A stretch of DNA of 64,000 bases from Chromatiaceae bacterium (GTDB lineage Bacteria; Pseudomonadota; Gammaproteobacteria; Chromatiales; Chromatiaceae): positions 1 through 64,000 of the forward strand of contig JACDZG010000028.1 of the NCBI GenBank assembly GCA_013426805.1. Direction: 5' to 3'. The first letter of the stretch is position 1; every line of letters starts with the position of its first letter. The notes below the pieces were generated by a model. It was not told the DNA's origin. It did not search any database and saw nothing but the letters and a program-made list of their open reading frames with translations. The translations under genes were made by a program, and so were the position numbers. Below are positions 20,975-55,900 of this stretch, piece after piece.

Positions 20975-21117
20975 GATCGTTACTCCGGTTGATCGAACCC
21001 GTGAGTATACGGGCAGATGCAGGGTTGGCGCCATGACCGAGCGCGATGACGGGATTGACCCGGCCTGGGGTCGTCTATACTTTACCTCAAGCCAATCAAC
21101 CGTATCCGACCCCACTC

Positions 21118-21834
21118 ATGGCACGCCTACCCCGCTTTGTCTTGCCCGGTGTCCCGCAGCATGTGATCCAGCGCGGCAACAATCGCCAGCAAATTCTTTT
21201 CAAGGAAGAAGATTACTGGTTCCTGTGGGAAAAAATCGGTGCCGCCGCCGAGAAATTTGACTGCAAGATTCACGCCTACGTGCTGATGCCAAATCACTTG
21301 CATCTGGTGTTGACCCCCTTCAGCCAGGACGGCATCGGTAAGCTGATGCAGTACGTCGGACGCTACTATGTCCAATATTTCAACAATTGCTACGACCGCA
21401 CCGGCACCCTGTGGGAAGGCCGCTACCGCGCGACCCTCTTCGACCCGACCGCCTTCCTAGTTCCGATCAGTCAATACGTGGAGTCCAACCCGGTTCGTGC
21501 CGGACTGGTCGCGGCGCCGGCCGATTATGCCTGGTCGAGCTTCGCGGCCAACGCGACGGGTGTGGAAGACCGTCTGATCACCCCCCACGCCGCCTTCGAG
21601 CGACTGGGCCGCAGCCCGAAGACCCGTCAGACGGCCTATTTGAAAGGCTTCGGAAAACCGCTGGATGAGGCCCTGTTGAATCGCATCCGCGACGCCACCA
21701 ACAAAGCGTGGGTGTTGGGCGATCCAGCGTTCTGCACCCAGATCGAAGAGCAAGCGGACCGCCGCGCATCACCTCGCCCGCGCGGTGGTGACCGGCGTTC
21801 CGCCGCTTACCGCGAAGCCACCGGACGCGCCTAA
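21118..21834 (+). CDS. RAYT-like transposase (IS200/Y1 family, long form)
   Basis: The protein is 238 residues. It starts MARLPRFVLPGVPQHVIQRG, then NRQQILF, AYVLMPNHLHLVLTP (HUH metal site), GTLWEGRYRATL and VESNPVRAGLV, with a basic C-terminal tail. This is the longer RAYT group, distinct from the copy at 17629. ATG 21118 gives the conserved N-terminus. No REP palindromes of the GTAGGAGCCC type flank it, so its partners lie elsewhere. It looks intact. Confidence 0.85.
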   Translation: MARLPRFVLPGVPQHVIQRGNNRQQILFKEEDYWFLWEKIGAAAEKFDCKIHAYVLMPNHLHLVLTPFSQDGIGKLMQYVGRYYVQYFNNCYDRTGTLWEGRYRATLFDPTAFLVPISQYVESNPVRAGLVAAPADYAWSSFAANATGVEDRLITPHAAFERLGRSPKTRQTAYLKGFGKPLDEALLNRIRDATNKAWVLGDPAFCTQIEEQADRRASPRPRGGDRRSAAYREATGRA

Positions 21835-25087: not shown

Positions 25088-25699
25088 ATGATCCATCAGC
25101 CCTTGGAACCCAACACGGATCGCGAGCCGCTGCTTCAGGACCGACGGCGCTTGCTACAGGCCGCGGCGGCAGCGGCGCCGCTCATCGCAACACTGCCGAA
25201 CGGGGCCGCGGCGGCGACCGCCAGTACCGCTCAGTGCATCGTGATATCACGTAAAGCCAAGCCTCTGAACAACGTCATCCCGGACGCTACCCCGCCGAGT
25301 GATACCTTTGTGCGTCAGCATGGCACCATGGCAGTCTTCCACCTCAACGCGCAACCGAACACGAAAGAAACAGTCTACTCAATGGCGTTCGATCCCGTCC
25401 CCGGCACCTATTACAAGAGCGACGGCGTTGTGTTTGACCCCACCGAATGGACTAAGGAAACCGAGAACCCCGTTCTGCTGTTGCGTGTATTCCGACCCGT
25501 TAGCGACAACGGCAATCCCGACACCAACCCAACCTCAATGGCTGATTGCGGGACTACCCCGATCCCCCCACAGTGTATCTTTCCGGTGACTCAACAGGAG
25601 TCGAGCAACATGGGCAACATGGGCATCGCCGCCAGTTGCCTGTGCTCGGTCAACCCCAATCTGCTGGGCACAGGGGCCTGTGACGCGTTCCAACCGTGA
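25088..25699 (+). CDS. Secreted six-cysteine protein of the HprK-related cluster
   Basis: The protein is 203 residues. The N-terminus has a twin-arginine-like signal (DRRRLLQAAAAAAPLIATL, cleavage near NGAAAA). The mature part carries six cysteines (QCIV, ADCG, PQCI, SCLC and ACDAF), enough for three disulfides or a metal/cluster site, and ends shortly after the last Cys. I do not recognise a family. It opens a tight cluster: the PqqD-like gene follows after 20 bases. It is the natural candidate for a substrate or product of the kinase/chaperone system, which is inference from position only. The 236 bases upstream (24852-25087) hold no gene and probably contain the promoter. Confidence 0.6.
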   Translation: MIHQPLEPNTDREPLLQDRRRLLQAAAAAAPLIATLPNGAAAATASTAQCIVISRKAKPLNNVIPDATPPSDTFVRQHGTMAVFHLNAQPNTKETVYSMAFDPVPGTYYKSDGVVFDPTEWTKETENPVLLLRVFRPVSDNGNPDTNPTSMADCGTTPIPPQCIFPVTQQESSNMGNMGIAASCLCSVNPNLLGTGACDAFQP

Positions 25700-25721
25700 G
25701 CCTGATCCGGTTGGGGGCTTG

Positions 25722-26021
25722 ATGAAGGAACCGGCACCAGGCGGTGATCAGTACCTCAGCTCGGCCGACACGCGCATTGTGGCAACCTGGGGCGCCGAGA
25801 GCAGTGTGTACTGCCGCCGCACCGGCGATACCCACCTGCTGAGCATCCTCCCGGCCGAGTTGCTCGCCATGCTGCCCGCGGAGCCGACGGACCTCGGGAC
25901 GGTCACCGCCCGCATGGCGCGGTTATGTGCGCAACCCGTCACCCCGGAATGGACCACACGCATCCGTTCCATGCTCGACGAACTGGTCCGCCTCGAACTC
26001 GTCGACCGGTTACCGGGGTGA
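25722..26021 (+). CDS. PqqD-like peptide chaperone of the HPr-rel-A system
   Basis: The protein is about 99 residues. It shares the small PqqD fold used to hand peptide substrates to modifying enzymes and belongs to the group always paired with HprK-related kinase A. Recognisable parts are VATWGAESSVYCRRTGDTHL and LLSILPAELLAML, and helical turns ending RLELVDRLPG. The start is taken as ATG 25722 (MKEPAPGGDQY); an upstream in-frame start at 25680 overlaps the previous gene. The stop overlaps the next start. Confidence 0.7.
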   Translation: MKEPAPGGDQYLSSADTRIVATWGAESSVYCRRTGDTHLLSILPAELLAMLPAEPTDLGTVTARMARLCAQPVTPEWTTRIRSMLDELVRLELVDRLPG

Positions 26022-26938
26022 CCCTGTCGGAGTTGAGGCAAGCGCAGGGATGGCGCGGATGCGCCGGCGACGATCTGTATTACCGCTGCGGGCCCTTCAT
26101 CGTCCAGTTGCGGTCGCGACTCGCCGACACGCTCGACCTGCTGGAGCAATTCTACGGCCCCTGCTGGGCCAGCCGCAGCCCCGCCGTCGCGCATTTTCAG
26201 GTTGAGGTCAACAGCGCGCCAGGACTCCGGCGCTGGTGGCGCTCTCAAACCGTGTTCGCATTGGACGGTCTGCATCCATTCGAGCCCTTTCCCCGCGCAC
26301 AAGCATTTGCGCTGCTTGAATGGGGCCTGAACTGGAGTATCGCCACCCGCGCCCACCAGTATCTGATGCTGCACGCGGGTGCACTGGAACGCAAGGGCCA
26401 AGCATTGTTGCTGCCCGCCATGCCGGGCGCGGGCAAGAGTACGCTCAGCGCCGCCCTTGCCTACCGCGGCTGGCGACTGCTCGGCGACGAGTTTGGACTG
26501 ATCCGCCCCGCTGACGGTGCCATCGTGCCGCTGCCACGCGCCATTCCACTGAAAAACCGGTCGATTCCGGTCATTCGCGAGTTCTTGCCGGACGCCTTTC
26601 TCGGGCCTGTCTTCCCCAAGACCAGAAAGGGTGACGTCGCTCACCTGCGGCCACCGCTCCCAAGCCTGGAACGTCAGACCGAACCGGCACATCCGCGCTG
26701 GATTACCTTTCCGCGGTTTGTACCCGGCTTGCGACGGCCGCAACTCAAGCGCCTGGAAAAGAGCCTTGGATTCACTCGCCTGGCACAGAACGCCTTCAAC
26801 TATCGCCTGCTCGGCGAAGACGGGTTCACGACCCTGGTCCGCCTGGTGCGTGAGTGCGCATGCTTCAGCCTGGACTATGGCGATCTCGACACGGCCATCG
26901 CGCGGATCGCGGAGATCACCGCGGATGCACCCCGCTAA
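26018..26938 (+). CDS. HprK-related kinase A
   Basis: The protein is about 306 residues. A lead domain is followed by an HPr-kinase-like P-loop PAMPGAGKSTLSAAL, then YRGWRLLGDEFGLI (the GDE metal-binding motif) and IPLKNRSIPVIREF. HprK phosphorylates a seryl side chain in Gram-positive sugar regulation, but this subfamily belongs to a peptide-handling gene cluster whose substrate is unknown. The start is a GTG at 26018 overlapping the preceding stop. The stop lies 14 bases inside the next gene, showing tight coupling. Confidence 0.8.
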   Translation: MTLSELRQAQGWRGCAGDDLYYRCGPFIVQLRSRLADTLDLLEQFYGPCWASRSPAVAHFQVEVNSAPGLRRWWRSQTVFALDGLHPFEPFPRAQAFALLEWGLNWSIATRAHQYLMLHAGALERKGQALLLPAMPGAGKSTLSAALAYRGWRLLGDEFGLIRPADGAIVPLPRAIPLKNRSIPVIREFLPDAFLGPVFPKTRKGDVAHLRPPLPSLERQTEPAHPRWITFPRFVPGLRRPQLKRLEKSLGFTRLAQNAFNYRLLGEDGFTTLVRLVRECACFSLDYGDLDTAIARIAEITADAPR

Positions 26939-28031
26939 GCTGCACCCGCTGTTGCGGAGCGCTCGCGACCCGTTGGCCGTTGTGCACTTCTCGGCAGACG
27001 ACTGGAACCGCTGCCTGCGTACGGCACGCACCGAGCGTGTGCTCGCGCGACTCGGTTATCGCATCGCGGATGCCGACGCACTGGACCGCTGCCCGGCGGC
27101 GGCCCGCGACCAACTGATCGCGGCGCGCGCCTATCCAGGCTTTCTCCAAGGCCGGATCGCGCACGAAGTCTCGCAGGTCCGCCGCGCGCTACCCGCCGCC
27201 GACGGCGACCTGATCTTGCTCAAGGGTGCCGCCTATCACTGCGCCGGATTACCGCTGACGCGCGGGCGGCAACTGCGTGACCTGGATATCCTGGTGCCGC
27301 GCGCACGGATCGGAGCCTGCGAGCGCGACTTGCTGGCCGGCGGCTGGGAATCGCAACCCCTCAATGATTACGACCAACGCTATTACCGTGACTGGATGCA
27401 TGAGATCCCGCCGCTGCGGCATCGGCACCGGGATGTCGAGGTCGACCTCCATCATCGGCTCCTGCCCCTGACCAGCCGCCTGCGGCCGGACCCTGACCTC
27501 CTATGGGAGTCCTCGCTCCCGGTCGCCGGGATGCCCGGGGTGCGGGTCCTGAGCCCCGCGGACATGCTGCTGCACACCGCCACCCATTTGTTTCATGACG
27601 GCGCGATCCGGGGCGGACTCAATGACCTCTGGGACATTGATGAACTGGTGCGTCACTTCGGGGGGCGGCCGGAGTTCTGGGGCAAACTGCCGGGGCGCGC
27701 CGCGCGCCTGGACCTGGGTCGCCCACTGTATTACGGGCTCCTGTTCTCGCACGCGCTCCTGGGCACTCCGATCCCGGCGGCCGTCCTGACCGACGTCGGC
27801 CGACGCTTCGCTCCAGCCCGACCGGTCAAGGCACTGATGCACACGCTGGTGACCCGCGCGCTCCCGCCGCAGGAAGGCTGGTCCGCGTTCGCCGGCCTGG
27901 CGAACTGGCTCCTGTATGTCCGCTCCCACTGGCTGCGGATGCCGCCGCATCTGTTGCTGCCGCATCTGATCCGCAAATCATTGCGTCGGCTCGACAGCCT
28001 TGATCAGCATTCCGGTCGGCTCAGGGGATGA
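26925..28031 (+). CDS. Nucleotidyltransferase family protein (PF14907 type)
   Basis: The protein is 368 residues. Motifs LLKGAAYHCAGLPLTRGRQL and RDLDILVPR match the NTP_transf_5 (PF14907) family, minimal nucleotidyltransferases often paired with HprK-related kinases and PqqD-like proteins. Further conserved blocks are VDLHHRLLPLTSRL and SPADMLLHTATHLFHDG. It probably transfers a nucleotide or acts on a kinase product. The start overlaps the kinase gene by 14 bases. It is the last gene of the cluster; its 3' end overlaps a remnant on the other strand. Confidence 0.8.
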   Translation: MHPAKLHPLLRSARDPLAVVHFSADDWNRCLRTARTERVLARLGYRIADADALDRCPAAARDQLIAARAYPGFLQGRIAHEVSQVRRALPAADGDLILLKGAAYHCAGLPLTRGRQLRDLDILVPRARIGACERDLLAGGWESQPLNDYDQRYYRDWMHEIPPLRHRHRDVEVDLHHRLLPLTSRLRPDPDLLWESSLPVAGMPGVRVLSPADMLLHTATHLFHDGAIRGGLNDLWDIDELVRHFGGRPEFWGKLPGRAARLDLGRPLYYGLLFSHALLGTPIPAAVLTDVGRRFAPARPVKALMHTLVTRALPPQEGWSAFAGLANWLLYVRSHWLRMPPHLLLPHLIRKSLRRLDSLDQHSGRLRG

Positions 28032-31965: not shown

Positions 31966-32064
31966 CCCGCCGTCATGGATTCGCAACGGCAGCACGGGAA
32001 GCGGGTCGGGTATGATCCCGCCTATGGACGCACGGCCCCGCGCCCCCATGGAGTTACAAACCCG

Positions 32065-34257
32065 ATGAAACGCCTGTTGTTGCTGTTGTTGATTTGCTGC
32101 GTCGCGCTGCCGACCGCGGCGCGCGATGCCGCCTACCCGCGGATCGGTCTGGTGCTGAGCGGCGGCGGTGCCCGCGGGGCGGCGCATGTGGGTGTGCTCA
32201 AGGTACTGGAAGAATTGCGCATTCCCATCACGGTCGTGGTCGGAACCAGCATGGGCGCCTTGGTGGGCGGCACCTACGCCAGCGGCGTCAGTCCGGCCGA
32301 AATGGAGCGCCGCTTGACCGCGGTGAACTGGAACAAACTCTTTGTCGATGACTCGCCGCGGGACGACTGGCCGATCCGCCGCCGCGAGCAGAGCCTGCAA
32401 CCGAACTTCGACTTCAGCGTCGGCGTGCGTGAGGGCAAGCTCAGACTGCCGAGCGGAGCGCTGGCCGGACAGAAAGTCGAGCTGTTCTTCGGTGACCTGG
32501 TCAAGAACGCCGACGGCATCAAGCAGTTCGATGAGCTGCCGATCCCGTTCCGCGCGGTGGCTACCAATCTGGAAAACGGCGACATGCAGGTGTTCGACTC
32601 AGGCCCGTTGCCGGAGGTGATGCGCGCCAGCATGTCGGTGCCAGGGCTCTTCGCCCCGGTGGAGATCGGCAAGAACATCTATGTGGACGGCGGCCTGGTG
32701 CGCAATCTACCGGTGGACGTGGCCCGCGCCATGGGTGTCGATCTGGTCATCGCGGTCAACCTGGGCGGGTCTTATCTTCCACGCGATCAGTTGGAGTCGG
32801 TCGTGGGCGTCGTGGGGCAGATGGTCGCGATTCTCACCGAACAGAACGTCCAGCGCTCACTCAAGGAACTGCGCCCCGGCACAGACGTACTGATCTCACC
32901 GGATCTGGGCGACATCACCTCCAGCAACTTCGACCGCGCCGCCGACGCGATCCGCATCGGCGAGATCGCGGCCCGCAAGGCCGCGCCGCGCCTGGCGCAC
33001 CTGAGCGTCAGCCCCGACGCCTATGCCGCTTGGCAGGCCGGCCGTCCACTGGCCATTCCGGACCGGGCGCCCATCGACGAGGTCAAGGTCACGGGACTGG
33101 ATTTCGTCAATCCAGCCATCTTCGAGCCGCTGGTCGACCATCAGGAAGGACGGGCGCTGGACCGGAAACGGCTGGAATCCGACATCGAGAAGATCTATGG
33201 CCGAGGCGACTTCAAGAACATCAACTACGACCTGGATCGGAAGAACGGCACCAACCGCCTGGACATCAACGCCCGCGAGAAACCCTGGGGACCCGGCTAT
33301 CTGACCTTCGGTCTCGGCATCGCCACGGACTTCGAGGGCGACAACCGCTTCGGCCTGCGCGGGACCTATCGCCGGACCTGGCTCAATGAACTTGGCGCCG
33401 AGTGGTATACGACCGCGCAGGTCGGTAACGTCACCGATCTCTACACCGAGTTTTACCAACCGTTCTCAGTCGAACGCTCCACTTTCGTGCTGCCCAGCCT
33501 GGGGTTTTCGCGAGTGCCGCTCAGTGTCTTCAAGGACGGTAGACGTGTCGCGCGCTATGACCTGTCGCGCAGCACGCTGGGCCTCGACCTGGGCGCAACC
33601 CTCTTCGGCGGCAATGCGCAACTGCGCATCGGCGCCATCCTTGGCCGCGCCAATGCCAAACTGGATACCGGCGACCCTGAACTCCCCGAACCGGACACGA
33701 ATGAAACCGGCCTGCGCGCCGCCTTCGTCTATGACACCCTCGACTCCGCTTTTCTGCCGCGGCGGGGCAATCGCCTGGCACTGGACCTGCATTCGCCCCA
33801 ACCGGCGATGGGGGCGGACCTCAGCTTCAACCGCGCCTCGGGCTACTGGGCCGGTGCCTTCAGCTTCGGAGACAATACTATCGTCGCCCGCTCCGAGGTC
33901 GGTACCGCCTTCGGCAGCGATATGCCCTATTACGATCAATTCACATTGGGCGGCTTCCACCGGCTGTCGGGCTATGCCACGGACGAGTTCCGCGGCAACA
34001 ACCTCGCCTTCGGCTCACTGACCTACTACCGACTGCTCACCGCCCTGCCGCCGCCGCTGGGCCGCGGGGTCTATGTCGGCGGATCACTGGAAATCGGCAC
34101 CCTGACCGAAACCATCGAGCAACTGAACGAATCCGGAACCCGCTTCGGCAGCAGCTTGTTTCTCGGTGCCGATACCTGGCTGGGACCGGCGTATTTCGGT
34201 GTCGGTCTGACCGGAGATGGCGAGACTACCGGATATCTCATCCTCGGGCGGCCATGA
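32065..34257 (+). CDS. Patatin-like phospholipase, type Vd autotransporter (PlpD-like)
   Basis: The protein is 730 residues. Signal peptide (RLLLLLLICCVALPTAA), then a patatin domain with LSGGGARGAAHVGVL (oxyanion hole), VVGTSMGAL (GxSxG nucleophile Ser) and IYVDGGLVRNLP (catalytic Asp). A POTRA-like segment follows (about residues 345-415: IDEVKVTGLDFVNPAIFEPL). It ends in a 16-strand-type outer-membrane barrel (about 420-730), finishing with an aromatic-rich strand. It probably secretes or displays its lipase domain on the surface. ATG 32065 is preferred because it starts the signal peptide. Confidence 0.9.
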   Translation: MKRLLLLLLICCVALPTAARDAAYPRIGLVLSGGGARGAAHVGVLKVLEELRIPITVVVGTSMGALVGGTYASGVSPAEMERRLTAVNWNKLFVDDSPRDDWPIRRREQSLQPNFDFSVGVREGKLRLPSGALAGQKVELFFGDLVKNADGIKQFDELPIPFRAVATNLENGDMQVFDSGPLPEVMRASMSVPGLFAPVEIGKNIYVDGGLVRNLPVDVARAMGVDLVIAVNLGGSYLPRDQLESVVGVVGQMVAILTEQNVQRSLKELRPGTDVLISPDLGDITSSNFDRAADAIRIGEIAARKAAPRLAHLSVSPDAYAAWQAGRPLAIPDRAPIDEVKVTGLDFVNPAIFEPLVDHQEGRALDRKRLESDIEKIYGRGDFKNINYDLDRKNGTNRLDINAREKPWGPGYLTFGLGIATDFEGDNRFGLRGTYRRTWLNELGAEWYTTAQVGNVTDLYTEFYQPFSVERSTFVLPSLGFSRVPLSVFKDGRRVARYDLSRSTLGLDLGATLFGGNAQLRIGAILGRANAKLDTGDPELPEPDTNETGLRAAFVYDTLDSAFLPRRGNRLALDLHSPQPAMGADLSFNRASGYWAGAFSFGDNTIVARSEVGTAFGSDMPYYDQFTLGGFHRLSGYATDEFRGNNLAFGSLTYYRLLTALPPPLGRGVYVGGSLEIGTLTETIEQLNESGTRFGSSLFLGADTWLGPAYFGVGLTGDGETTGYLILGRP

Positions 34258-45302: not shown

Positions 45303-45360
45303 GGTCCGCACAGCGGACCCTACGGTAACACCGTGACCTGTAGGGTCCGCTGTGCGGACC
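45303..45360. repeat. Inverted pair of the GGTCCGC palindrome (copies C and D)
   Basis: GGTCCGCACAGCGGACCCTA (45303-45322), then the exact inverse TAGGGTCCGCTGTGCGGACC (45341-45360). Together they make a long hairpin just before the OLD-type nuclease gene. Same family as 28289 and 35769. Confidence 0.9.
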
Positions 45361-45435
45361 GACGACCGTGCCGATCGCGCGGTGGCCGGGTTTATAACCA
45401 AGGCCCCCAGCTCGCTATCCGAGACGGAATGTCCC

Positions 45436-47229
45436 ATGCGCCTGCTTCATTATCTTGAAATCCAGAACTTCAAGCGCTTCGGTGACCGGCAGCGCATCGA
45501 GCTGGACCATCCGGCCGTGCTCATCGGCCCCAACAACTGCGGCAAGACAACGGCGATCCAGGCCATCGCGCTCTGGTCCCAAGCCATCAGGACCTGGCAG
45601 GCGAGTAAGGGAAAAGCACCGCCCAAGGAGCGCACCTCGACCTCGCTCAACCGCCTGAACATCGTGTCGGTGCCGGTTGCGCGCACGCGCTACTTCTGGC
45701 ACAACGCGGCGGTGCGCACCGGCAACACGGACATCCCGCTGTTGATTACGCTCGGCGTGCTTCATCAAAATATAGTCGAACCCGTCACGCTGCGCTTCCG
45801 CAACCAGGGCGACGAGCTGGTGTATTGCACGCCCGACGATGCCGCCCTGGAACGACCGGATCTCATCGAAACAGCGGCCGGGCTCAATGTCGAACTGTTG
45901 TACCCCATGTCCGGCCTGGAAACCGAGGAACCGATTCTCCAGCCGGGCCGCATCGGTGTGCTATTGGGACAGGGCCAGACAGCGCAGGTACTGCGCAACC
46001 TGTGTCTGCTGGTGTTTAAAGACGCACCAGAGGACTGGCGCCGCATCGCTGCGCTGATGCGGCGCTTGTTCACGGTCGATCTGGGAGACCCCACGGAGAC
46101 CGCGCGCGGCAGTATCAATCTATTCTACCGGCAAGCGCGGGTGAAGGAACCCCTGGATATTGCGCTCGCGGGACGCGGGTTCCAGCAGATGCTCCTGATC
46201 TTTGCCTATCTTTATTCACATCGCCGCAGCGTCCTGCTGATCGACGAACCGGACGCCCATCTGGAGATCTTGCGCCAGAAGCAGGTCTATGTACTGCTGC
46301 GCGAGATTGCGGCCGAGAACGAATCCCAAGTGATCTTGGTCACCCACTCGGAGGTGATTCTCGAGGAAGCGCTCGACCACAACCTCACGCTGCTGTTGGG
46401 CGGTCAGACCGACGATATTGCGGCGAAGTCGGATATCAAGAACGCCCTGAAACACTACGGCGCGGAACACTACGTCCGCGCGCGCCAGCGGGGCTATGTG
46501 CTTTATGTGGAAGGCGGTACCGATCTTGAGATATTGAAGGCGCTGGCAAACCGCCTGGGTCACCGCGTGGCGAATCTCTGGGACGAGCGGGTCAATGCCT
46601 TCTATGTCCAAGACAACTTCCCTGACCCCGATCTGAACTCCGAGCTGGAACGCGTAGAGGGCGGCTTCGGCGTGACGCCCAAGAAACACTTCTTCGCGCT
46701 TCGTAACATGGTCCCCGGACTCGCCGGCCTGGCGATCCTGGACAATGACGGTCGACAACGGCAAGACTCGGACGAGGGCGGACTGCATACTGTCTACTGG
46801 AGTCGCTACGAGGCCGAAAACTACTTCATCACGCCTGATCTGTTAAGGAACTTCGCCATTCGGAGCTACCAGGACCTTCCCCTCTTTGGGCAGATTCAAA
46901 GTGAGACTGATGAAGTGCTTGACGCGCTGATTACTGAGCGCGTGTTTGGCGGACGTGCCCGTGACCTCGAGATTTGGCGAAGTCTCGATCCGGCGGCGGC
47001 TCGGCTCCTGTGGGAGGCGAGAACTGAAAGGGTGAAACTCAGCGAGTTTGCCGAGGCGTTTTTCCGGCGCCTTGCCGCCCGATTGGGACACGCGATGCTG
47101 TTGCGCAAGGGGGAGTTTTATCGACTCGTTGACTTCGTCGACCCCCAGGGACTCCCGGAGGAGGTCACCGAGAAGCTGGATTTGCTCGCGGCGCTCTTCG
47201 CTGGGGCGGCCCCTGGGGAAGAGGCATGA
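45436..47229 (+). CDS. OLD-family ATPase/TOPRIM nuclease (class 1-like, defence candidate)
   Basis: The protein is 597 residues. The N-terminal ABC-type ATPase has Walker A IGPNNCGKTTAIQAIAL (31-38), Walker B VLLIDEPDAHLEI (267-275) and ILVTHSEVILEEA (H-loop). A TOPRIM nuclease follows, with VLYVEGGTDLEIL (Glu359) and AGLAILDNDGR (Asp436, Asp438). ATPase plus TOPRIM in one chain is the OLD layout, as in GajA. No UvrD-like helicase follows, so it is a stand-alone (class 1-like) OLD rather than Gabija. ATG 45436 starts MRLLHYLEIQNFKRFG. Its position between two copies of the hsdM promoter suggests insertion into the restriction locus. Both active sites look complete. Confidence 0.85.
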   Translation: MRLLHYLEIQNFKRFGDRQRIELDHPAVLIGPNNCGKTTAIQAIALWSQAIRTWQASKGKAPPKERTSTSLNRLNIVSVPVARTRYFWHNAAVRTGNTDIPLLITLGVLHQNIVEPVTLRFRNQGDELVYCTPDDAALERPDLIETAAGLNVELLYPMSGLETEEPILQPGRIGVLLGQGQTAQVLRNLCLLVFKDAPEDWRRIAALMRRLFTVDLGDPTETARGSINLFYRQARVKEPLDIALAGRGFQQMLLIFAYLYSHRRSVLLIDEPDAHLEILRQKQVYVLLREIAAENESQVILVTHSEVILEEALDHNLTLLLGGQTDDIAAKSDIKNALKHYGAEHYVRARQRGYVLYVEGGTDLEILKALANRLGHRVANLWDERVNAFYVQDNFPDPDLNSELERVEGGFGVTPKKHFFALRNMVPGLAGLAILDNDGRQRQDSDEGGLHTVYWSRYEAENYFITPDLLRNFAIRSYQDLPLFGQIQSETDEVLDALITERVFGGRARDLEIWRSLDPAAARLLWEARTERVKLSEFAEAFFRRLAARLGHAMLLRKGEFYRLVDFVDPQGLPEEVTEKLDLLAALFAGAAPGEEA

Positions 47230-47240
47230 AGTCCACATCG

Positions 47241-47332
47241 TCGCGCAGAGCGGACGGCCGACGCTCGTTCTGTCCACGCGTTACGTATAATGTCCCCGGA
47301 ACACCCCGCGACACAGAGGAAAGGACATCGCC
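47241..47332 (+). promoter_or_regulatory. hsdM promoter region (right direct repeat)
   Basis: A perfect -10 TATAAT (47286-47291) and a strong ribosome site GAGGAAAGGA (from 47314) precede the TTG start at 47333. The repeat extends to 47360 within hsdM and is duplicated at 45171-45271. Confidence 0.65.
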
Positions 47333-49132
47333 TTGAGCGCCGACAGCCACGCCCAGCTCGCCAACTTCATCTGGAGCATCTGCAACCTGTTGCGGGGACC
47401 CTACAAGCGCAACGAATACCGCATCAAGAAGTTCGCCTCGGTCGATCTCTCCCCGGATCGCGTCGACAACCTCCAGATGGGCTACGTCTTCGAGGAGCTG
47501 ATCCGAATCGGCGCCGAGCAGTCGAACGAGGAAGCCGGCGAGCACTTCACCCCGCGCGAGGTGATCAAGCTGATGGTCAATCTCCTGCTTTCCCCGGAGG
47601 AGGATCTGCGTAGGAGCCACGTCGTCAAGACCATCTACGACCCGGCCTGCGGCACCGGCGGCATGCTCTCGGTCGCGGAGCGCTACATCCGCGATCTCAA
47701 TGCCGACGCCGATCCCCACCTGTTCGGTCAGGACTGGAACGACGAGTCCTGGGCCATCTGCAAGGCCGATATGCTGATCAAGGGCGAGGACGCCGACCAC
47801 ATCGTCCTCGGCGACACCTTCACCCAGGATGGCTTCGACCGCGACGCGGGGGGCAAGCGGCGCACGTTCGACTATATGTTGGCCAACCCACCCTTCGGCG
47901 TGGAGTGGAAGCAGCAGCAGAAATACATCGAGGACGAGGCCAGTTCACTGGGGTACAGCGGCCGGTTCGGCGCCGGCCTGCCGCGCATCAACGACGGCTC
48001 GCTGCTCTTCCTGCAGCACATGCTCGCCAAGATGCGGGCCCCGGCGGAGGGCGGCAGCCGGATCGGCATCGTCTTCAACGGCTCGCCGCTCTTCACCGGC
48101 GACGCCGGCAGCGGCGAGAGCACGATCCGCCAGTGGATCATCGAGAACGACTGGCTCGAAGCCGTGGTCGCGCTCCCCGACCAGCTCTTCTACAACACCG
48201 GCATCTCCACATACCTCTGGGTGCTCACCAACCGCAAGGAGCCCAGACGCAAGGGCAAGGTGCAACTCATCGACGCCCGGCGCTTCTTCGTGAAGATGCC
48301 CAAGAGCCTCGGCAACAAGCGCAACAAGATCGGCGATCCCGCCGACCGGCCGAGCGAACCGGACCAGATCGGCGACATCACCCGCCTGTTCGGCAGCTTC
48401 ACCGACGGCGAGACCCGCACCTTCACCGAAGAAGACCCGATCACCAAGCAGCCCGTCGCACGGGTGCGTGTCGTCAGCAAGGTCTTCGACAACCAGGATT
48501 TCGGCTTCCACAAGATCACGGTCGAGCGCCCGTTGCGCCTGAGCTTCCAGGCGACCGCGGAGCGGATCGCCCGCCTGAAAACCGAGAGCGGCTTCGTCAA
48601 GCTCGCCACCAGCACCAAGAAGAACGAGAAGGCCCGGCTCGACGACATCGCGACCGGCAAACGGCGGCAGGACCAGATTCGCAACCTCCTCGCCCGATTC
48701 GCCGCGGCGCACGGTGACACGCTCTACAAAGACCGCACTGACTTCCTGACTGCCCTGCGCGAGGTCGATCGCGCCGCCGGTGTCCGGTTGACCGCACCCG
48801 AACTCAAAGCCGTGCTCGGCGCCTTGGGCGAGCGCGACGAGACGGCGGAGCCCTGCCGCGACCGCAATGGCAACCCCGAGCCTGACCCGGATCTGCGCGA
48901 CACCGAAAGCGTGCCCCTGAAGGAAGGCATCGCGCAGTACTTTGAGCGCGAGGTGCGCCCGCACGTCCCCGACGCCTGGATCGACGAGGACAAGACCAAG
49001 GTCGGTTACGAGATCCCGCTCAACCGGCACTTCTATCGCTATGAGCCACCCCGTCCGCTTGAGGTCATCGAGAACGATATCAAGACGTTGGAGCAGGATA
49101 TTCTCGCACTTCTCAAGGAAGTCGCTGCATAA
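47333..49132 (+). CDS. hsdM: Type I restriction-modification methyltransferase HsdM with N-terminal deletion
   Basis: The protein is 599 residues. The N6-adenine methylase core is complete: DPACGTGGML (SAM binding, about 103-112), NPPFGV (185-190), and the C-terminal helices. The N-terminal HsdM domain is cut: residues 1-30 (SHAQLANFIWSICNLLRGPY then KRNEYR) are joined directly to IKKFASVDLSPDRVDNLQMG. Relatives continue EYRK-VILPLTVLRRFD and carry about 100-110 more residues before the KKFA stretch. The deletion (at about 47422) is in frame. The start is TTG 47333, with a good ribosome site. It works with HsdS at 49837 and HsdR at 52981. Whether this shortened protein still methylates is doubtful. 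Confidence 0.85.
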   Translation: MSADSHAQLANFIWSICNLLRGPYKRNEYRIKKFASVDLSPDRVDNLQMGYVFEELIRIGAEQSNEEAGEHFTPREVIKLMVNLLLSPEEDLRRSHVVKTIYDPACGTGGMLSVAERYIRDLNADADPHLFGQDWNDESWAICKADMLIKGEDADHIVLGDTFTQDGFDRDAGGKRRTFDYMLANPPFGVEWKQQQKYIEDEASSLGYSGRFGAGLPRINDGSLLFLQHMLAKMRAPAEGGSRIGIVFNGSPLFTGDAGSGESTIRQWIIENDWLEAVVALPDQLFYNTGISTYLWVLTNRKEPRRKGKVQLIDARRFFVKMPKSLGNKRNKIGDPADRPSEPDQIGDITRLFGSFTDGETRTFTEEDPITKQPVARVRVVSKVFDNQDFGFHKITVERPLRLSFQATAERIARLKTESGFVKLATSTKKNEKARLDDIATGKRRQDQIRNLLARFAAAHGDTLYKDRTDFLTALREVDRAAGVRLTAPELKAVLGALGERDETAEPCRDRNGNPEPDPDLRDTESVPLKEGIAQYFEREVRPHVPDAWIDEDKTKVGYEIPLNRHFYRYEPPRPLEVIENDIKTLEQDILALLKEVAA

Positions 49133-49336
49133 CAATGAAGCGATTCCGACAGACTGTGGCCCCGCAACCGGACCAAGGCGACGAGACCTCCGCCTTCGTC
49201 TACCCGGCAACCCTTCGGGGCTCTCGCTCTTGCCTGTTGTCGTCGCTCAGGTCTACAATTATCCGCAACAACACCCCCCACGCATCCCGTCGGATCTGCG
49301 CACCATGGGGGGTTACTTTTTTCCGGAGGCGCACAG
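49133..49336. other. Spacer between hsdM and the abi remnant
   Basis: About 200 bases with no credible gene. A GGAGG-type ribosome site (TCCGGAGGCGCACAG) lies just before the abi start. Confidence 0.6.
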
Positions 49337-49796
49337 GTGCGCTTCGATAAGCCCCCGCTCAGCTTCGAGCAACAGCTCGACCGAATGATCGAGCGCGGCA
49401 TCCGCTGCGATGACCGCCAGCAGGCGCTCCACTATCTTGCCCATCTCAATGGACGAAAGCAACCTCACCTCGTTTCTCCACCACCTCACAATCATCCGCA
49501 ACATCTGCGCCCATCACGGTCGTCTCTGGAACCGGGAATTCACCGTCACCTTCCGCCTGCCGAGCCATCGGCCCAAAACGCTGATTTCCAGTCTCAACCC
49601 GAAGGACGGGCGCCGCATTTACAACACACTCGCCATGCTTGCCGACCTGATGGATCGAATCAGCCCCGGCCACCACTGGAAACGCCGGTTGCGAACGCTC
49701 CTGGAACAGCACCGCATCGACACCCGGCCCATGGGATTCCCGGATCATTTTGCCCTTCGGCCGCTCTGGGCCGATGTTTGGACGGAGGCCCGCTGA
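49337..49796 (+). pseudogene. Abi_2-type abortive infection gene, internally deleted
   Basis: The start (GTG 49337) gives VRFDKPPLSFEQQLDRMIER then DRQQALHYLAHLN, the N-terminus of Abi_2/AbiD-like proteins. At about 49450 the sequence changes frame and continues SFLHHLTIIRNICAHHGRLW (with the RNxCAHHxRLW HEPN-type motif) and AMLADLMDRISPGHHWKRR to a normal end at 49796. Relatives are about 300-330 residues, so roughly 170-200 middle codons are missing. The catalytic RN...H motif is left in the second fragment, which could only be made from an internal start. It sits between hsdM and hsdS, a common place for such genes. Confidence 0.65.
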
Positions 49797-49836
49797 TGAC
49801 AACACAGCCGACCGGCATACGGATCCGAGGCCGTCG

Positions 49837-51210
49837 ATGAGATATCAACCCTATCCGAGGTACAAACCGAGCGGGGTCGAGTGGCTTGGGGAGGTACCTG
49901 AACATTGGAACGTGAAGCGGCTCAAAGCCGTTGCGACTTATTCGGTCAGCAACGTAGATAAGGTGCCGTCAGAGAACGAGATGCCGGTACGCCTGTGCAA
50001 TTACACCAACGTCTATTACCACGACCAAATCCGTCCGGGTATGGGACTGATGGAGACGACAGCAACGCCGGAAGAGGTCCGCCGTTTTGGACTGAAGGTT
50101 GGCGACGTGGTCATTACAAAGGACTCTGAGGAGTGGAGTGACATCGCTGTTCCGGCCCTCGTAGTCGAATCCGCCGCCGATCTAGTCTGCGGTTACCACT
50201 TGGCGATTGTACGACCCAACCAGCCGCAACTGCTCGGGCGGTTTCTCTTGCGGGTATTTCAGGCCTGCGCGGTGAACCAGCAGTTCCAAGTAGCAGCAAC
50301 TGGTGTGACGCGATACGGCTTACCAAAATCATCGATCGGAGAGGCATGGCTCCCGCTTCCGTCCACGACAGAACAACATGCCATCGCCGACATCCTCGAC
50401 CGCGAGACGTTGATGCTCGACACGCTGGTGGCGAAGAAGCGGACCTTGATCGAGCGGCTGAAAGAGAAGCGCACCGCACTCATTTCGCGGACGGTCACCC
50501 GCGGCCTACCTCCCGACGCCGCCCGCGCCGTCGGCCTCGACCCACACCCCAAGCTCAAGCCCTCCGGCATCGAATGGCTTGGCGACGTGCCGGAGCATTG
50601 GGGCGTGGCGCAGTTGCGGCGCAGGTGCGTGATCCTCGACTGCATGCATCGCACGGTCTCGTTCATTGACGATGGGGTTCCTCTTGCAAGCATCCGTGAG
50701 GTCCATGGATTCGAAGTCGACCTGTCCAATGCAAAGCAGACAACGGAGGAAGAGTATCTAGGGCTACTTGAAGGTGGTAGACGCCCTCGCATTGGAGACA
50801 TCATCTACAGCAGAAACGCGTCGGTCGGCGACGCGGCCATTATCGCGACATCGGAGCGGTTTGCGATGGGCCAGGATGTTTGCCTTCTCCGCTCGGAGGC
50901 ACAGGATGCAAAGCACCTGCTCCTGCTTCTTCGGTCAGAGCCACTCGTACAGCAGCTAGAGTCCTTCGTAGTCGGCGCCACATTCCGGCGAATCAACGTC
51001 GGCCAGATTCGCACGTTCTGGGCCTGCTGGCCACCGGTCGAGGAGCAACGCGCCATCGCAGCGTTCCTCAACCGCGAGACAACGAGAATTGACGCCATGA
51101 TCGCCAAGATCGAAACCGCCATCAACCGCTTGCAGGAATACCGCACCGCGCTGATCACCGCCGCCGTCACCGGCAAGATCGACGTACGCGCAAGAGCAAG
51201 CACAGCGTAA
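49837..51210 (+). CDS. hsdS: Type I restriction specificity subunit HsdS
   Basis: The protein is 457 residues. It has two target-recognition halves, each opening with the same motif (KPSGVEWLGEVPEHW near residue 11 and KPSGIEWLGDVPEHW near 245), each followed by a coiled-coil spacer with EQxAIADILDRET / EQRAIAAFLNRET. The protein reads as complete. The two halves recognise the two parts of a bipartite DNA site. ATG 49837 begins MRYQPYPRYK. The gene lies 40 bases after the abi remnant; the next gene begins 10 bases past its stop. Confidence 0.92.
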   Translation: MRYQPYPRYKPSGVEWLGEVPEHWNVKRLKAVATYSVSNVDKVPSENEMPVRLCNYTNVYYHDQIRPGMGLMETTATPEEVRRFGLKVGDVVITKDSEEWSDIAVPALVVESAADLVCGYHLAIVRPNQPQLLGRFLLRVFQACAVNQQFQVAATGVTRYGLPKSSIGEAWLPLPSTTEQHAIADILDRETLMLDTLVAKKRTLIERLKEKRTALISRTVTRGLPPDAARAVGLDPHPKLKPSGIEWLGDVPEHWGVAQLRRRCVILDCMHRTVSFIDDGVPLASIREVHGFEVDLSNAKQTTEEEYLGLLEGGRRPRIGDIIYSRNASVGDAAIIATSERFAMGQDVCLLRSEAQDAKHLLLLLRSEPLVQQLESFVVGATFRRINVGQIRTFWACWPPVEEQRAIAAFLNRETTRIDAMIAKIETAINRLQEYRTALITAAVTGKIDVRARASTA

Positions 51211-51219
51211 TAACGCAAA

Positions 51220-51594
51220 ATGATGTTCAGAGAGACATTGCCCGAAGACTGTCCACCTGGAGCGGCAGACGAAATTGCGGAACAGCGCGATGTTTATCGG
51301 CTGGTCGCCTCCGATCCGCCAACAGAGGCAGACTTTCGCTCACAGCGCGCATTGCGGCCTACCGCCGTGTTCAGTGTCTCGGAGTGTCAGGCGTGCGGGC
51401 TTTCAGTGCATACCGAACGGGCGGACTCGCTGCGCGCAGCGAAGTTGCCAAGACTCAGGGGTAAGCGGATCTGTCGGGTGCGACTGCTGCCGGGTGCGGG
51501 CTATCTGCAGCAAACGGGCACGCCCTCGCACCACACCTGGTGGCCGTCGGCGGACTTCGACATTCTGGCGCAGTGTGAGGCTGCAATGTCATGA
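51220..51594 (+). CDS. Unknown small protein, first of a pair between hsdS and hsdR
   Basis: The protein is 124 residues. I do not recognise a family. It has no signal peptide or membrane segment. A CxxC pair (SECQACGLSVH) could hold zinc, and the C-terminal half is basic (RLRGKRICRVRLLPG) then ends TWWPSADFDILAQ. The start is ATG 51220 or 51223, 10 bases after hsdS, and the stop overlaps the next start (ATGTCATGA), so it is co-translated with 51591. It resembles an accessory or inhibitor protein inserted in a restriction operon. Confidence 0.6.
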   Translation: MMFRETLPEDCPPGAADEIAEQRDVYRLVASDPPTEADFRSQRALRPTAVFSVSECQACGLSVHTERADSLRAAKLPRLRGKRICRVRLLPGAGYLQQTGTPSHHTWWPSADFDILAQCEAAMS

Positions 51595-52736
51595 CCACAA
51601 TCCGGCATCTACGAACCTTGTATTTCTACGATGGGCCTCAGGTCATCGAGGCACGAGACGCTATCGGAGGGCATTACGTTGGGGTCCTGATCGAACCCGA
51701 CGGAGCGCATGATCGCTTCCTGGTCTGCGGTGTAGATCCGGATCGTCTGCGCGAGTTCCGCATCGGCCATCTGGATTTGCTTGCCCTGCTCACGGAGCAG
51801 GACGAAGCAAGGTATTTCCTCGCCACCGTGACCGGGGCATTGAGCGAGCCGCTGCACCTTACGGCGATCAATCATGAGGCAGACATCCAAGGCTATCTTC
51901 CAGACGAAGGATTTGTGCTGCACGATCCTCCGATCGAGGACCTGACATTGCGCGAGGCGCACGACCGAAACACCCTGGTGCTCAACATCGCGGTCGATCC
52001 ACCGGAAGCGAATTCGGAGAACCGCATCCGGGTGTCCACGCTGGTGGGCCTGCTGAACAATGTGCAGACGCTGTTAAGGCATGCATATGGCGCTGCCCTG
52101 CGGGATCTGCCTGCTGCCGCCCGGCGCAGCATCGACCGTACGGATGCGCACTTGATGGACGTGGTGGTTCCGGCCGCGTCAGGCTCGTTCCGGATCGTCT
52201 TAGCTGCGTCCAGGGCCAGCGACTTGCTGGGACACAACGAACTGGCGCGCGCGTTGGAGAGGGTCGATGCGATGTTCGACGACATTGATCAGCCGGAAGT
52301 GGTTCTGGAGCGCGTGCGTACGCATCGAGGGCATTTTGCCGGCGCTTTCCTGCGCTTGTTGCGATTTCTGGTGGACCACCGGTCCGGCATGCGATACGAC
52401 TGGGCGCAGCCGGGCTTCTCAGCTCCACGATCCCGGTCGATCAGCCAGGCGCAATCGCTGCCCATTGTCGAGCTACTATCGGGTGTGTCCAATCTGGGTT
52501 CGGAATCGATCACTTTAACCGGTATTCTGGAAGAAGCGGATGTCACTCGGCGTACCTGGCGGATGGCGACGGACGAAGGCAAGGTGACGGGTGGGGTACA
52601 GGAGAGCGGCCCAACACTCGAAGGCTTACGGCTCGGGGCCGCCTATGAGTTTTCGTGTATCGAGGAGATCGAGTTCTTCGATGGCACCGGCCAGGAAGCC
52701 CGTAAGATGATCTTGACCGAGCATCGCCCGCGCTGA
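51591..52736 (+). CDS. Unknown 381-aa protein, second of the pair (DUF6575-like)
   Basis: The protein is 381 residues. Beta-rich N-terminus (IRHLRTLYFYDGPQVIEARD, HYVGVLIEPDG, FRIGHLDLLALLTEQDEARY), a helical middle (VSTLVGLLNNVQTLLRHAYG, LARALERVDAMFDDID) and a beta-rich C-terminus (YEFSCIEEIEFFDGTG). I recall related uncharacterised proteins labelled DUF6575, but no activity is known. No nuclease, ATPase or membrane motif is evident. It overlaps the preceding gene by 4 bases and is followed by a 244-base gap before hsdR. Its location in a type I restriction operon suggests a defence or restriction-control role. Confidence 0.6.
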   Translation: MTTIRHLRTLYFYDGPQVIEARDAIGGHYVGVLIEPDGAHDRFLVCGVDPDRLREFRIGHLDLLALLTEQDEARYFLATVTGALSEPLHLTAINHEADIQGYLPDEGFVLHDPPIEDLTLREAHDRNTLVLNIAVDPPEANSENRIRVSTLVGLLNNVQTLLRHAYGAALRDLPAAARRSIDRTDAHLMDVVVPAASGSFRIVLAASRASDLLGHNELARALERVDAMFDDIDQPEVVLERVRTHRGHFAGAFLRLLRFLVDHRSGMRYDWAQPGFSAPRSRSISQAQSLPIVELLSGVSNLGSESITLTGILEEADVTRRTWRMATDEGKVTGGVQESGPTLEGLRLGAAYEFSCIEEIEFFDGTGQEARKMILTEHRPR

Positions 52737-52758
52737 GCGCCAAACGTTAGGGCGATTG

Positions 52759-52771
52759 CCGGAAATCACCT
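52759..52771. repeat. Solo end of the 16-base inverted repeat found at 35985-36124
   Basis: CCGGAAATCACCT matches 13 bases of the right end of the MITE-like element at 35985-36124. The second end is not present nearby. It lies in the 244-base gap before hsdR (52737-52980), which is otherwise without a gene and probably holds the hsdR promoter. Confidence 0.5.
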
Positions 52772-52980
52772 ACATTGCGGGTCATCGGGCCGCCGCTCAG
52801 ATCGCTTAAGCCCGCAATCTCCGACGAGCGGCAAAGCGGCCCGTCGCTTATTTGACGGCTATTTGACGCCATGCCTGGCGGACAGCGGCCAATGTTCGGA
52901 TATGCCTTGTAACTGACTGAGAAAGCGTAAATGTCTGCGTTTGCGGTGCCGCCTGCTTATTTGATGGAAGCCTGAGACCC

Positions 52981-55900
52981 ATGCCAAAAACCAACGAGCG
53001 AGCCTTCGAGTCTTACGTCGAGCTGATGCTCCTCGACCGCGGCTGGCAGCCTGGCACGAACGCCGAGTGGGATGTCGAGCGCGCGCTGTTTCCCGCCCGC
53101 GTCTGCGCCTTCATTCAGGCGACTCAAGGGGAACTCTGGAAGGACATGCGTGACTTACACGCCGCCGGCCTGGAGGCGTTACTGATCGGCGCGCTCGTCA
53201 AGGAACTCGACCTCAAGGGCACCTTGCATGTGCTGCGGCATGGTTTCAAGTTCTACGGCAAGACCTTCCGGCTCGCGTACTTCAAGCCGGCCCATGGCCT
53301 GAACGACGCGGTACAGGCGCTCTACGCCCAGAATCAGCTCACGATCACCCGCCAGGTGCTTTGCCATCCGGGCAAGCACGACACGGTGGATGTCCTGTTC
53401 GCGGTCAATGGACTCCCGGTCGGGAGCTGCGAGCTGAAGAATCCCGGCACCGGCCGGAACTGGCGTCACGCCGTGCGCCAGTACCAGCAGGACCGCGATC
53501 CGCGCGCGCCCCTGTTCGCCTTCAAGACGCGCGCTCTGGTGCACTTCGCCGCCGACCCGGACGAGGTACACATGACAACGCGGCTGCGCGGCGCACACAC
53601 CCACTTTTTGCCCTTTAATCGCGGCAGCCATCCAGGCGAGGTGCAGTGCGGCGCCGGCAATCCGCAGCATCCGTCGGGCTACCGTACAGGTTACTTCTGG
53701 GAGGACGTGCTGAGCCGCGACAGCGTCCTCGACATCCTCGGGCACTTCATGTTCGTGGAGAAGAAGGAAGAGAAGGTCGACGACAGTCCTTCATCCGGAC
53801 GGCGTAGCGGTCAGCGGCGCATCACGAAGGAGGCGGTGATCTTCCCGCGCTATCACCAACTCGACACCGTGCGAAAAGTCATCGACGCGGCACGCAGCGA
53901 AGGGGCGGGCTGTCATTATCTGATTGCGCATTCGGCGGGCAGCGGGAAGACCAACAGCATCTCGTGGCTGTCGCATCGCCTCGCCAGTCTGCACGACAGC
54001 GCGGACCGCAAGGTGTTCGACTGTGTGGTGGTCATCACCGATCGGCGCGTGCTCGACAAGCAGCTTCAGGATGCGATTTACCAGATCGAGCATGCCCAGG
54101 GCGTGGTCAAGGCCATCGACCAGGACAGCAAGCAACTCGCGGCGGCGTTGATCGACGGGACCAAGATCGTGATCACCACGTTGCAGAAGTTTCCCTTCGT
54201 TCTGCGCGGGCTGCTACGCATGGCCGGCGCCCAGACGCAGGAGCAGGCAAGCGCGCAGGAACAAGCGCAAGCGGCGGCCTGGGAGAGCGAGATCGCAAAA
54301 CGCCGTTACGCCGTCATCGTCGACGAGGCCCATTCCAGCCAGACCGGCGAGACGGCGCGGGAGCTCAAGGCCATCCTTGGCGCCGGCGCCGCCGCGGACG
54401 TGGAAGGCGAGACCGACTGGGAGGATCGTCTCAACCAGGTCATGGCCTCGCGCGGCCGACAGCCGAACCTGAGCTTCTTTGCCTTCACGGCCACCCTCAA
54501 AGGTAAAACACTGGAACTGTTCGGGCGACCAGGAAGCGGCGGAACACCGGAGGCATTTCATCTCTACAGCATGCGGCAAGCGATCGAGGAAGGCTTCATC
54601 CTCGATGTGCTCACCCACTATACGACCTACGCCACCTACTACCGCTTGCTGAAGGCCGCCGAGGACGATCCGAATCTGCCAAAGAAGAAGGCGGCGCGGG
54701 CGCTGGCAAAGTTCATGAGCCTGCACCCGCATAACATCGAGCAGAAAACCGAGGTCATCGTCGAGCACTTCCGCCGCAGCGTGATGCACCGGCTCGGCGG
54801 ACGTGGCAAGGCCATGGTGGTGACCAGCTCGCGTCTGCATGCGGTGCGTTACAAGCTGGCCTTCGAGCGCTACCTCGCCGAGCACGGCTATCCGGATATC
54901 CGTCCGCTGGTCGCCTTCAGCGGCAAAGTGATGGACCCGCAGACCGGTATCGAATACACCGAGCCCGGCATGAACACCGATAGCATAACGGGCAAACCCA
55001 TCAGTGAAGCCGCTTTGCCCGCGCGCTTTGAGACGCCCGATTACCAGGTGCTGCTGGTCGCCAACAAGTATCAGACCGGTTTCGACCAGCCCCTGCTATG
55101 CGCCATGTACGTGGACAAGCGGCTCGATGGCGTGCAGGCCGTGCAGACACTCTCGCGTCTGAACCGCATGATCCCCGGCAAGGACGCACCTTTCGTGCTC
55201 GACTTCATCAACGACGCCGCGAACATCTACCGCGCATTCAAGCCCTACTACGACAAGACCGAGCTTGCGGCAGCGTCGGACCCGGCCATGATGGACGCGT
55301 TGAAGCATGCACTCGATCAGGCGCAGGTCTATTACTGGAGCGAGGTCGAGGCGTTCGCCCAGATATTCTACAAACCGATCCAGCGGCAGGTTGCCGCCGA
55401 CCATGCGCACATGCAGCGCCACCTGCAACCCGCGGTTGACCGCTTCAAGGTGGTCACCGACCAGGCCAAACGCGAGGCGTTTCGAGAGACGCTTGCAGGC
55501 TTTATACGGGTCTATGCCTTTCTGAGTCAGATCGTGCCCTACGCCGATTCGGACCTGGAGATGCTCTACAGCTACGGACGGCTTCTGCTGCCCCACCTGC
55601 CGCTCGATCGTGACATGACGATCCTCAAAGTGGGTGATGAGGTGGCGCTGCAGTATTACCGACTGGAACGGGTATTCTCCGGTACGATCGATATCAAGGA
55701 TGGCGACCCGCAGTATGTCAAGAGCCCGAGCGACGTGGGCACCGGCAAGGCTCAAGACGAGAAGGCACCGCTCTCTGAGATCATCGACGTACTCAACGAA
55801 CGCTTCGGCACCCAGTTCAGTGAAGAAGACCGGCTGTTCTTTGCACAGATCAAGGAGAAGGCGTGCAAGAGCGAGAAAGTCATTCAGACAGCACTGGCCA

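Follow-up and report, generated by a model that had tools for sequence, protein, structure and literature searches.

Positions 25088-28031 of a 64,000-nucleotide stretch of Chromatiaceae DNA (contig JACDZG010000028.1, positions 1 to 64,000; hereafter the window) encode a PqqD-like peptide chaperone, an HprK-related kinase A and a nucleotidyltransferase, and the question that this locus raises is what these enzymes modify. The original prediction named as likely substrate the Tat-like (twin-arginine translocation) secreted protein encoded at the head of the cluster, here called 25088 after its start coordinate. The comparisons presented below bear this out: a protein with the same leader accompanies the kinase in 68 of 73 loci of the bacterial family, and the leader is kept in common although the protein bodies behind it are unrelated. 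We consider 25088 very probably the dedicated substrate, judging from sequence. The joint claim, that the cassette performs leader-guided modification of this one substrate by Ser phosphorylation, is one toward which we lean by a small margin.

The four tightly coupled genes are present as predicted, all on the forward strand, and all except 25088 exceed the cut-off of a named family. The candidate substrate (203 aa, 25088..25699), which has a leader and a C-terminal motif in common with its relatives, is followed after 22 nt, taking the ATG at 25722 as start, by the PqqD-like gene (25722..26021), whose product clears the curated cut-off of TIGR04353 marginally (35.6 vs 35 bits). The HprK-related kinase A gene (26018..26938; TIGR04352, 362 bits, cut-off 200) starts with a GTG that overlaps the stop of the PqqD-like gene, the two genes sharing 4 nt, and itself overlaps the nucleotidyltransferase gene (26925..28031; PF14907, NTP_transf_5, 179 bits, cut-off 31.2) by 14 nt; gap and overlaps were read from the sequence. 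By these cut-offs the kinase and PqqD-like protein are members of the HPr-rel-A system (TIGR04352 + TIGR04353), whose NCBIfam models name the enzymes; none of them matched 25088.

The company that the kinase keeps was examined across 194 genomes of this family, 74 of which have it over cut-off. Of 75 matches over cut-off, 73 were fetched, leaving aside a fragment and the match of the window itself; seven below cut-off brought the set to 80 loci. With 25088 alone as phmmer query, one open reading frame (ORF) was matched in 32 of the 80. With an iterated leader profile, 62 of the 73 loci showed a signal ORF directly upstream, and the 68 mentioned above a leader-bearing ORF at any position within the fetched locus. 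At the five loci without one, the kinase domain starts 111-647 nt from the contig end.

A leader model, made from a 44-member alignment and searched against the 194 whole genomes with up to 38 candidates scored in each (up to 12 for the kinase), matched in 76. Leader and kinase occur together in 72 genomes, the kinase alone in 2, the leader alone in 4 and neither in 116 (Fisher p 1.5e-45, phylogeny ignored). Since the model derives from kinase loci, the informative part of this table is its silence in the 116 kinase-free genomes, together with the near-absence of second copies: 74 of the 76 genomes hold one leader match each, and one of the two with two matches (G167) also has two kinases. Two of the leader-only genomes show traces of the kinase, a fragment cut at the contig end in G012 and a weak match right beside the leader in G209; for G076 and G213, no kinase is shown next to the leader. 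The test set beforehand for the substrate role was whether 25088 homologs are linked to HprK-related kinases, and linked they are (72/74 kinase genomes carry the leader vs 4/120 others). A general sorting signal serving many clients per genome is disfavoured by the single leader match in 74 of 76 genomes (at most 38 candidates scored in each).

Which parts of 25088 are conserved? Its N-terminus is RRR signal-like and it has Cys at 50, 154, 163, 184, 186 and 198, so the predicted six cysteines are present in the protein itself, which resembles a Tat-secreted protein; as a trait of its class, the six cysteines fall away. Nine counted relatives of class A (the 25088-like proteins) have 2, 4 or 6, and in an alignment of 20 members C50 and C184 are the sole invariant Cys, which rules out six cysteines as the defining feature. 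The residues invariant in that alignment are R19, R20, A26, P31, T35, L36, A41, A43, S46, C50, C184 and S187. What class A shares, by alignment, is instead a leader, residues 19-50 in 25088 (RRRLLQ...APLIATLPNGAAAATAST..C50; 25142..25237), and a C-terminal SCxxS[FLIVM] motif, here SCLCSV (residues 183-188; 25634..25651) with Cys184 and the candidate modified Ser187 (codon 25646-25648). The protein has no Pfam or NCBIfam match up to E 1, and none of the four cassette genes, 25088 included, matched a PHROG up to E 0.01; two weak matches (E 0.15 and 0.88) are all that it finds among PDB sequences. Its structure model is weak (mean predicted local distance difference test score, pLDDT, 57.6), with a predicted beta core at about 74-153 and a tail that falls below pLDDT 50 from residue 166.

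A set of 87 non-redundant neighbour proteins falls into class A (49), class C (19) and class B or other (19). Between classes the leaders, which had been picked by the leader model itself, are 37.6% identical (shuffled 20.7%), while the bodies are at chance level (22.9%; shuffled 22.3%). A common leader on unrelated bodies is as expected were a PqqD-like carrier to read the leader, and a conserved leader with a divergent core beside a PqqD-like protein is a trait of precursors of ribosomally synthesized and post-translationally modified peptides. At the other end of the proteins, 48 of the 87 bodies carry the motif [ST]C[WLMFY].S[FLIVM] in their final 30 residues (shuffled mean 0.03, max 1/87 in 500 rounds), and 61 of the 68 that are not class C carry a looser version that covers class B (shuffled mean 2.2, max 7 in 1000 rounds); both patterns were chosen after viewing the sequences. 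Between 1 and 19 residues follow the motif Ser (median 5; 16 in 25088). A loose pattern that would unite the classes, S-x-[WYFLM...]-x-S, occurs in 76/87 bodies but had a shuffled mean of 24.5/87 and a maximum of 36, so for class C we make no such claim.

Pfam and NCBIfam scans of 62 of the 87 proteins gave matches to five families, each with one member (E 0.0028-0.0087); three of these single, weak matches are from NCBIfam, each to another model, and the class C members scanned showed no family beyond such matches. The class C domain has the consensus ...SPGYWKNH...ARHLVAAYLNA...GYYEPTAGVKW... (e.g. L043, L068, L216, L223 and L246) and was matched in 78 of 220 partly overlapping loci by a profile iterated over all locus sets.

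The pairing extends beyond the family. Phylum-wide (Pseudomonadota, judging by named kinase relatives), 61 of 398 genomes have the kinase over cut-off, with up to six candidates scored in each; 53 loci were fetched (our own and seven others were omitted), for a total of 126 kinases with the 73 of the family. A candidate neighbour protein is present in 48 of the 53. The leader profile at a lenient 14 bits or more finds it in 35; at one further locus (L158) the neighbour matched and was excluded from the 35 by the distance rule alone, three (L154, L155, L188) have neighbours that look class C-like by eye, and at nine (L190-L198) the ORF upstream ends in TC[FY]ASLQ, with an RR signal visible in 7 of the 9. 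A set from named genomes, the best 80 of at least 149 kinase relatives and in part overlapping the other sets, gave a candidate in 73 loci: class C in 50, a class A neighbour in 16, class B in 1 and a leader-like ORF only in 6. Three of the remaining seven loci are close to a contig end. The closest named kinase relative among the matches listed, which may omit records of our own genome, is that of Lamprocystis purpurea DSM 4197 (91% identity), so that the window probably belongs to a purple sulfur bacterium close to it. Upstream of three distant kinase relatives (L201, L206 and L207, which score 70-86 bits against the kinase profile) lies a Tat-like ORF with SRR.FLKKA whose tail differs; these loci are perhaps a sister system.

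Both enzymes have intact active sites. Kinase residues H119, K140, D157 and E158 are invariant in 127/127 aligned sequences, with an intact P-loop and catalytic His/Asp, and transferase residues K100, G101, R115, D119, D121, H159, D174 and H176 in 118/118; the transferase is over the NTP_transf_5 gathering cut-off and keeps the DxD site. Neither sequence matches PDB up to E 1, and Pfam Hpr_kinase_C reaches the kinase at E 0.42. The confident kinase model (pLDDT 96) has a predicted PEPCK/HprK fold. VIA-align superposes it on ATP-PEPCK 1ii2_A over 282 residues (Z 15.9, root mean square deviation 5.2), and Foldseek, in whose ranking ATP-PEPCK stands above HprK/P, finds HprK/P 3tqf more weakly (E 0.0021); HprK/P is absent from the 50 VIA-align matches listed, which does not count against the relationship. 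Around the enzymes, a PqqD-like ORF lies beside 113 of the 126 kinases, and the transferase was matched in 73 of the 80 family loci. At one locus (L173:5938-8064, forward strand) the kinase and transferase profiles both match within a single open frame of 708 aa, possibly a natural fusion of the two. Ten loci (including L157, L164-L166, L174 and L202) have an extra gene between kinase and transferase, in frames of about 570-760 aa, whose representative has below-cut-off matches alone, of the tetratricopeptide repeat type (MamA, PrsT).

The same three enzyme types tailor phosphorylated and phosphoglycosylated lasso peptides such as paeninodin and pseudomycoidin. As described in passages of PMC9266682 and PMC8498205, the HPr-type kinases PadeK and ThcoK phosphorylate the C-terminal Ser of the precursor and have a His-Lys-Asp-Asp motif, PqqD-like B1 proteins bind lasso-precursor leaders, and the nucleotidyltransferase PsmN puts one or two hexoses on the phosphate of pseudomycoidin. 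PsmN may be a member of PF14907. The cassette kinase has the superfamily fold and P-loop of HprK/P; its H119, K140 and D157 fit the His-Lys-Asp part of the lasso-kinase motif as those passages give it, and its invariant E158 stands where that motif has Asp. Unlike lasso precursors, the substrate here would be a 203-aa, Tat-like and predicted exported protein. A lasso peptide cluster as such was rejected: the candidate Ser is not terminal, and no B2 protease or ATP-dependent C cyclase was found among the 7 proteins of window 21.0-28.0 kb and the 10 further window ORFs that were scanned.

From these precedents a sequence of steps can be proposed. In the cytoplasm the PqqD-like protein would bind the conserved leader of 25088. 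The HprK-related kinase would then phosphorylate Ser187 of the SC-x-x-S-hydrophobic motif; its conservation and the lasso-peptide kinases make the motif Ser, in our estimate, a slightly better than even choice for the phosphorylated residue. By analogy with pseudomycoidin the PF14907 enzyme may extend the Ser187 phosphate, for which a sugar or a nucleotide is the likeliest addition; we put this step forward tentatively. Modified 25088 would leave the cytoplasm through Tat and serve at the cell surface, probably together with the exosortase A/exopolysaccharide system, with which the kinase co-occurs; a role in the exopolysaccharide matrix is close to an even call, falling a little on the doubtful side.

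Several points weigh against this proposal. The case for 25088 as substrate is genomic throughout. With a leader model trained on leaders from kinase loci of the same genomes, the kinase-positive half of the co-occurrence table is partly circular, and the limit of 38 scored candidates per genome may hide second copies or kinase-free leaders. Five of the 53 phylum loci (L169, L170, L180, L185, L200) show no recognisable candidate neighbour. Class C bodies (19/87) do not have the C-terminal motif, so that a modification site common to all classes is not established. The low-confidence tail of the 25088 model may reflect disorder, or merely a shallow alignment. The phospho-Ser of lasso peptides is, in the passages cited, the last residue, whereas the candidate here is Ser187 of 203 and the last residue is Pro. 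The transferase profile is silent in 9 of the 53 phylum loci (at L172, one of the nine, the locus stops shortly behind the kinase), which lowered our confidence in the transferase step a little, and by these profile searches neither the transferase nor the PqqD-like protein is a constant partner of the kinase.

The alternative that survives best, though we hold it unlikely, is that the neighbour protein is a partner: the enzymes would have another target (a small molecule, a PEP-CTERM protein or a polysaccharide precursor), and outside the cell the exported protein would act with what they make. The diversity of the bodies would suit a partner, as does the genomic setting. Recurrent neighbours include the exosortase A-system families TIGR03087, TIGR03088, TIGR04063, TIGR03013 and TIGR03108 (each over cut-off in a scanned representative), and by phmmer to such representatives at least one exosortase A-system gene, among them glycosyltransferases or the amidotransferase of the XrtA/PEP-CTERM system, lies in the fetched flanks of 43 of the 126 loci (16/73 in the family, 27/53 in the phylum). 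XrtA itself is over cut-off in 57 of 74 kinase genomes vs 7 of 120 others (Fisher p 8.6e-26, phylogeny ignored; up to 12 candidates scored per genome). The kinase is thus absent from 7 XrtA genomes, and 17 kinase genomes have no XrtA over cut-off. In our genome XrtA is on another contig (C163) than the cassette, and in 14 compared genomes that have both on the same contig (XrtA being below cut-off in one of them) they lie from 18 kb to 3 Mb apart; such variable distances point to co-inheritance and not to a fixed operon. 25088 itself matches no PEP-CTERM model, a PEP-CTERM C-terminal domain being absent from its NCBIfam and Pfam matches up to E 1. A partner would, however, be hard to reconcile with a leader conserved over unrelated bodies beside a PqqD-like protein, and with a Ser motif near the C-terminus that hardly varies.

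Rather less likely still, the kinase may target an N-terminal or other Ser, the SCxxS tail being a recognition or folding element and classes A and B being modified differently from class C. Class C is what speaks for this, since its bodies are a homologous domain (SPGYWKNH, HLVAAYLNA) with no SCxxS tail and with a conserved N-terminal Ser-rich stretch, C-x-x-S-G-x-x-S-G-N just past the leader; the invariance of Cys50 in the 20 class A members also points to the N-terminal side. Two observations argue for the motif Ser. Of 52 matches to the motif, 51 have Ser there and one has Thr, and the minimal relative (L176) has a body of 19 residues that holds the motif, ends TASCLDSFNGL and offers few other Ser or Thr (S2, T3, T7, T9, S11, S15).

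We give very little credence to a lanthionine-like ring, formed by elimination of the Ser phosphate and attack by a neighbouring Cys: the motif Cys and Ser are close and a second Cys lies past the leader, but by eye Ala or Ser replaces the motif Cys in most tails of class B, no cluster of neighbours outside the cassette recurs in more than 20 loci, and the ten clusters annotated include no lyase or lanthionine cyclase. Just as improbable is an ordinary Tat signal on a chance operon passenger, which would account for the RR motif (seen by eye) and AxA site of 25088, a protein that has no Pfam match and whose relatives gave one weak TAT_signal match among the 62 scanned (E 0.0087), but not for leader residues P31, T35, L36 and S46, which go beyond what Tat is known to require, nor for a leader profile silent over cut-off in 116 of 120 kinase-free genomes and with rare second copies (at most 38 candidates per genome scored).

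Leader-guided modification of one dedicated substrate is therefore the reading that we carry forward, and its novelty lies on the substrate side. The enzyme families are already named; a dedicated substrate family with a predicted modified residue is a new proposal, well supported for the substrate by sequence comparison. The open-licence literature yielded neither substrate nor product of the HPr-rel-A system and no use of the term 'HprK-related kinase', and a search of it and of the family libraries turned up no account of the substrate family, of its motif or of its link to XrtA. Papers there that join PqqD with HPr kinase are, judged by their titles, on lasso peptides, and 'HPr kinase' is absent among the matches listed from the exosortase/PEP-CTERM literature. 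The passages of PMC1569441 at hand have no occurrence of HPr, PqqD or nucleotidyltransferase, and those of PMC9850573 none of the five terms searched.

If the proposal is true, exported proteins too undergo the kinase and nucleotidyltransferase chemistry by which lasso peptides are tailored, and the exosortase A/exopolysaccharide system gains a new partner. An improbable but far-reaching extension would have a Ser-phosphate-sugar or Ser-phosphate-nucleotide on a Tat-exported protein serve as anchor or primer of an exosortase A-type exopolysaccharide, one per genome and widespread. Thanks to the 19-residue natural core of L176, a single co-expression experiment could test the chemistry.

Elsewhere in the window we note an ORF resembling REP-associated tyrosine transposases about 3 kb upstream of the cassette (21046-21834; Y1_Tnp over the Pfam cut-off and below that of NCBIfam), a single ORF that joins a patatin-like phospholipase to an Omp85-type barrel (31975-34257), and a likely type I restriction-modification set with AAA ATPase, N6 methylase, specificity and SWI2/SNF2-HSDR proteins (45352-56109).

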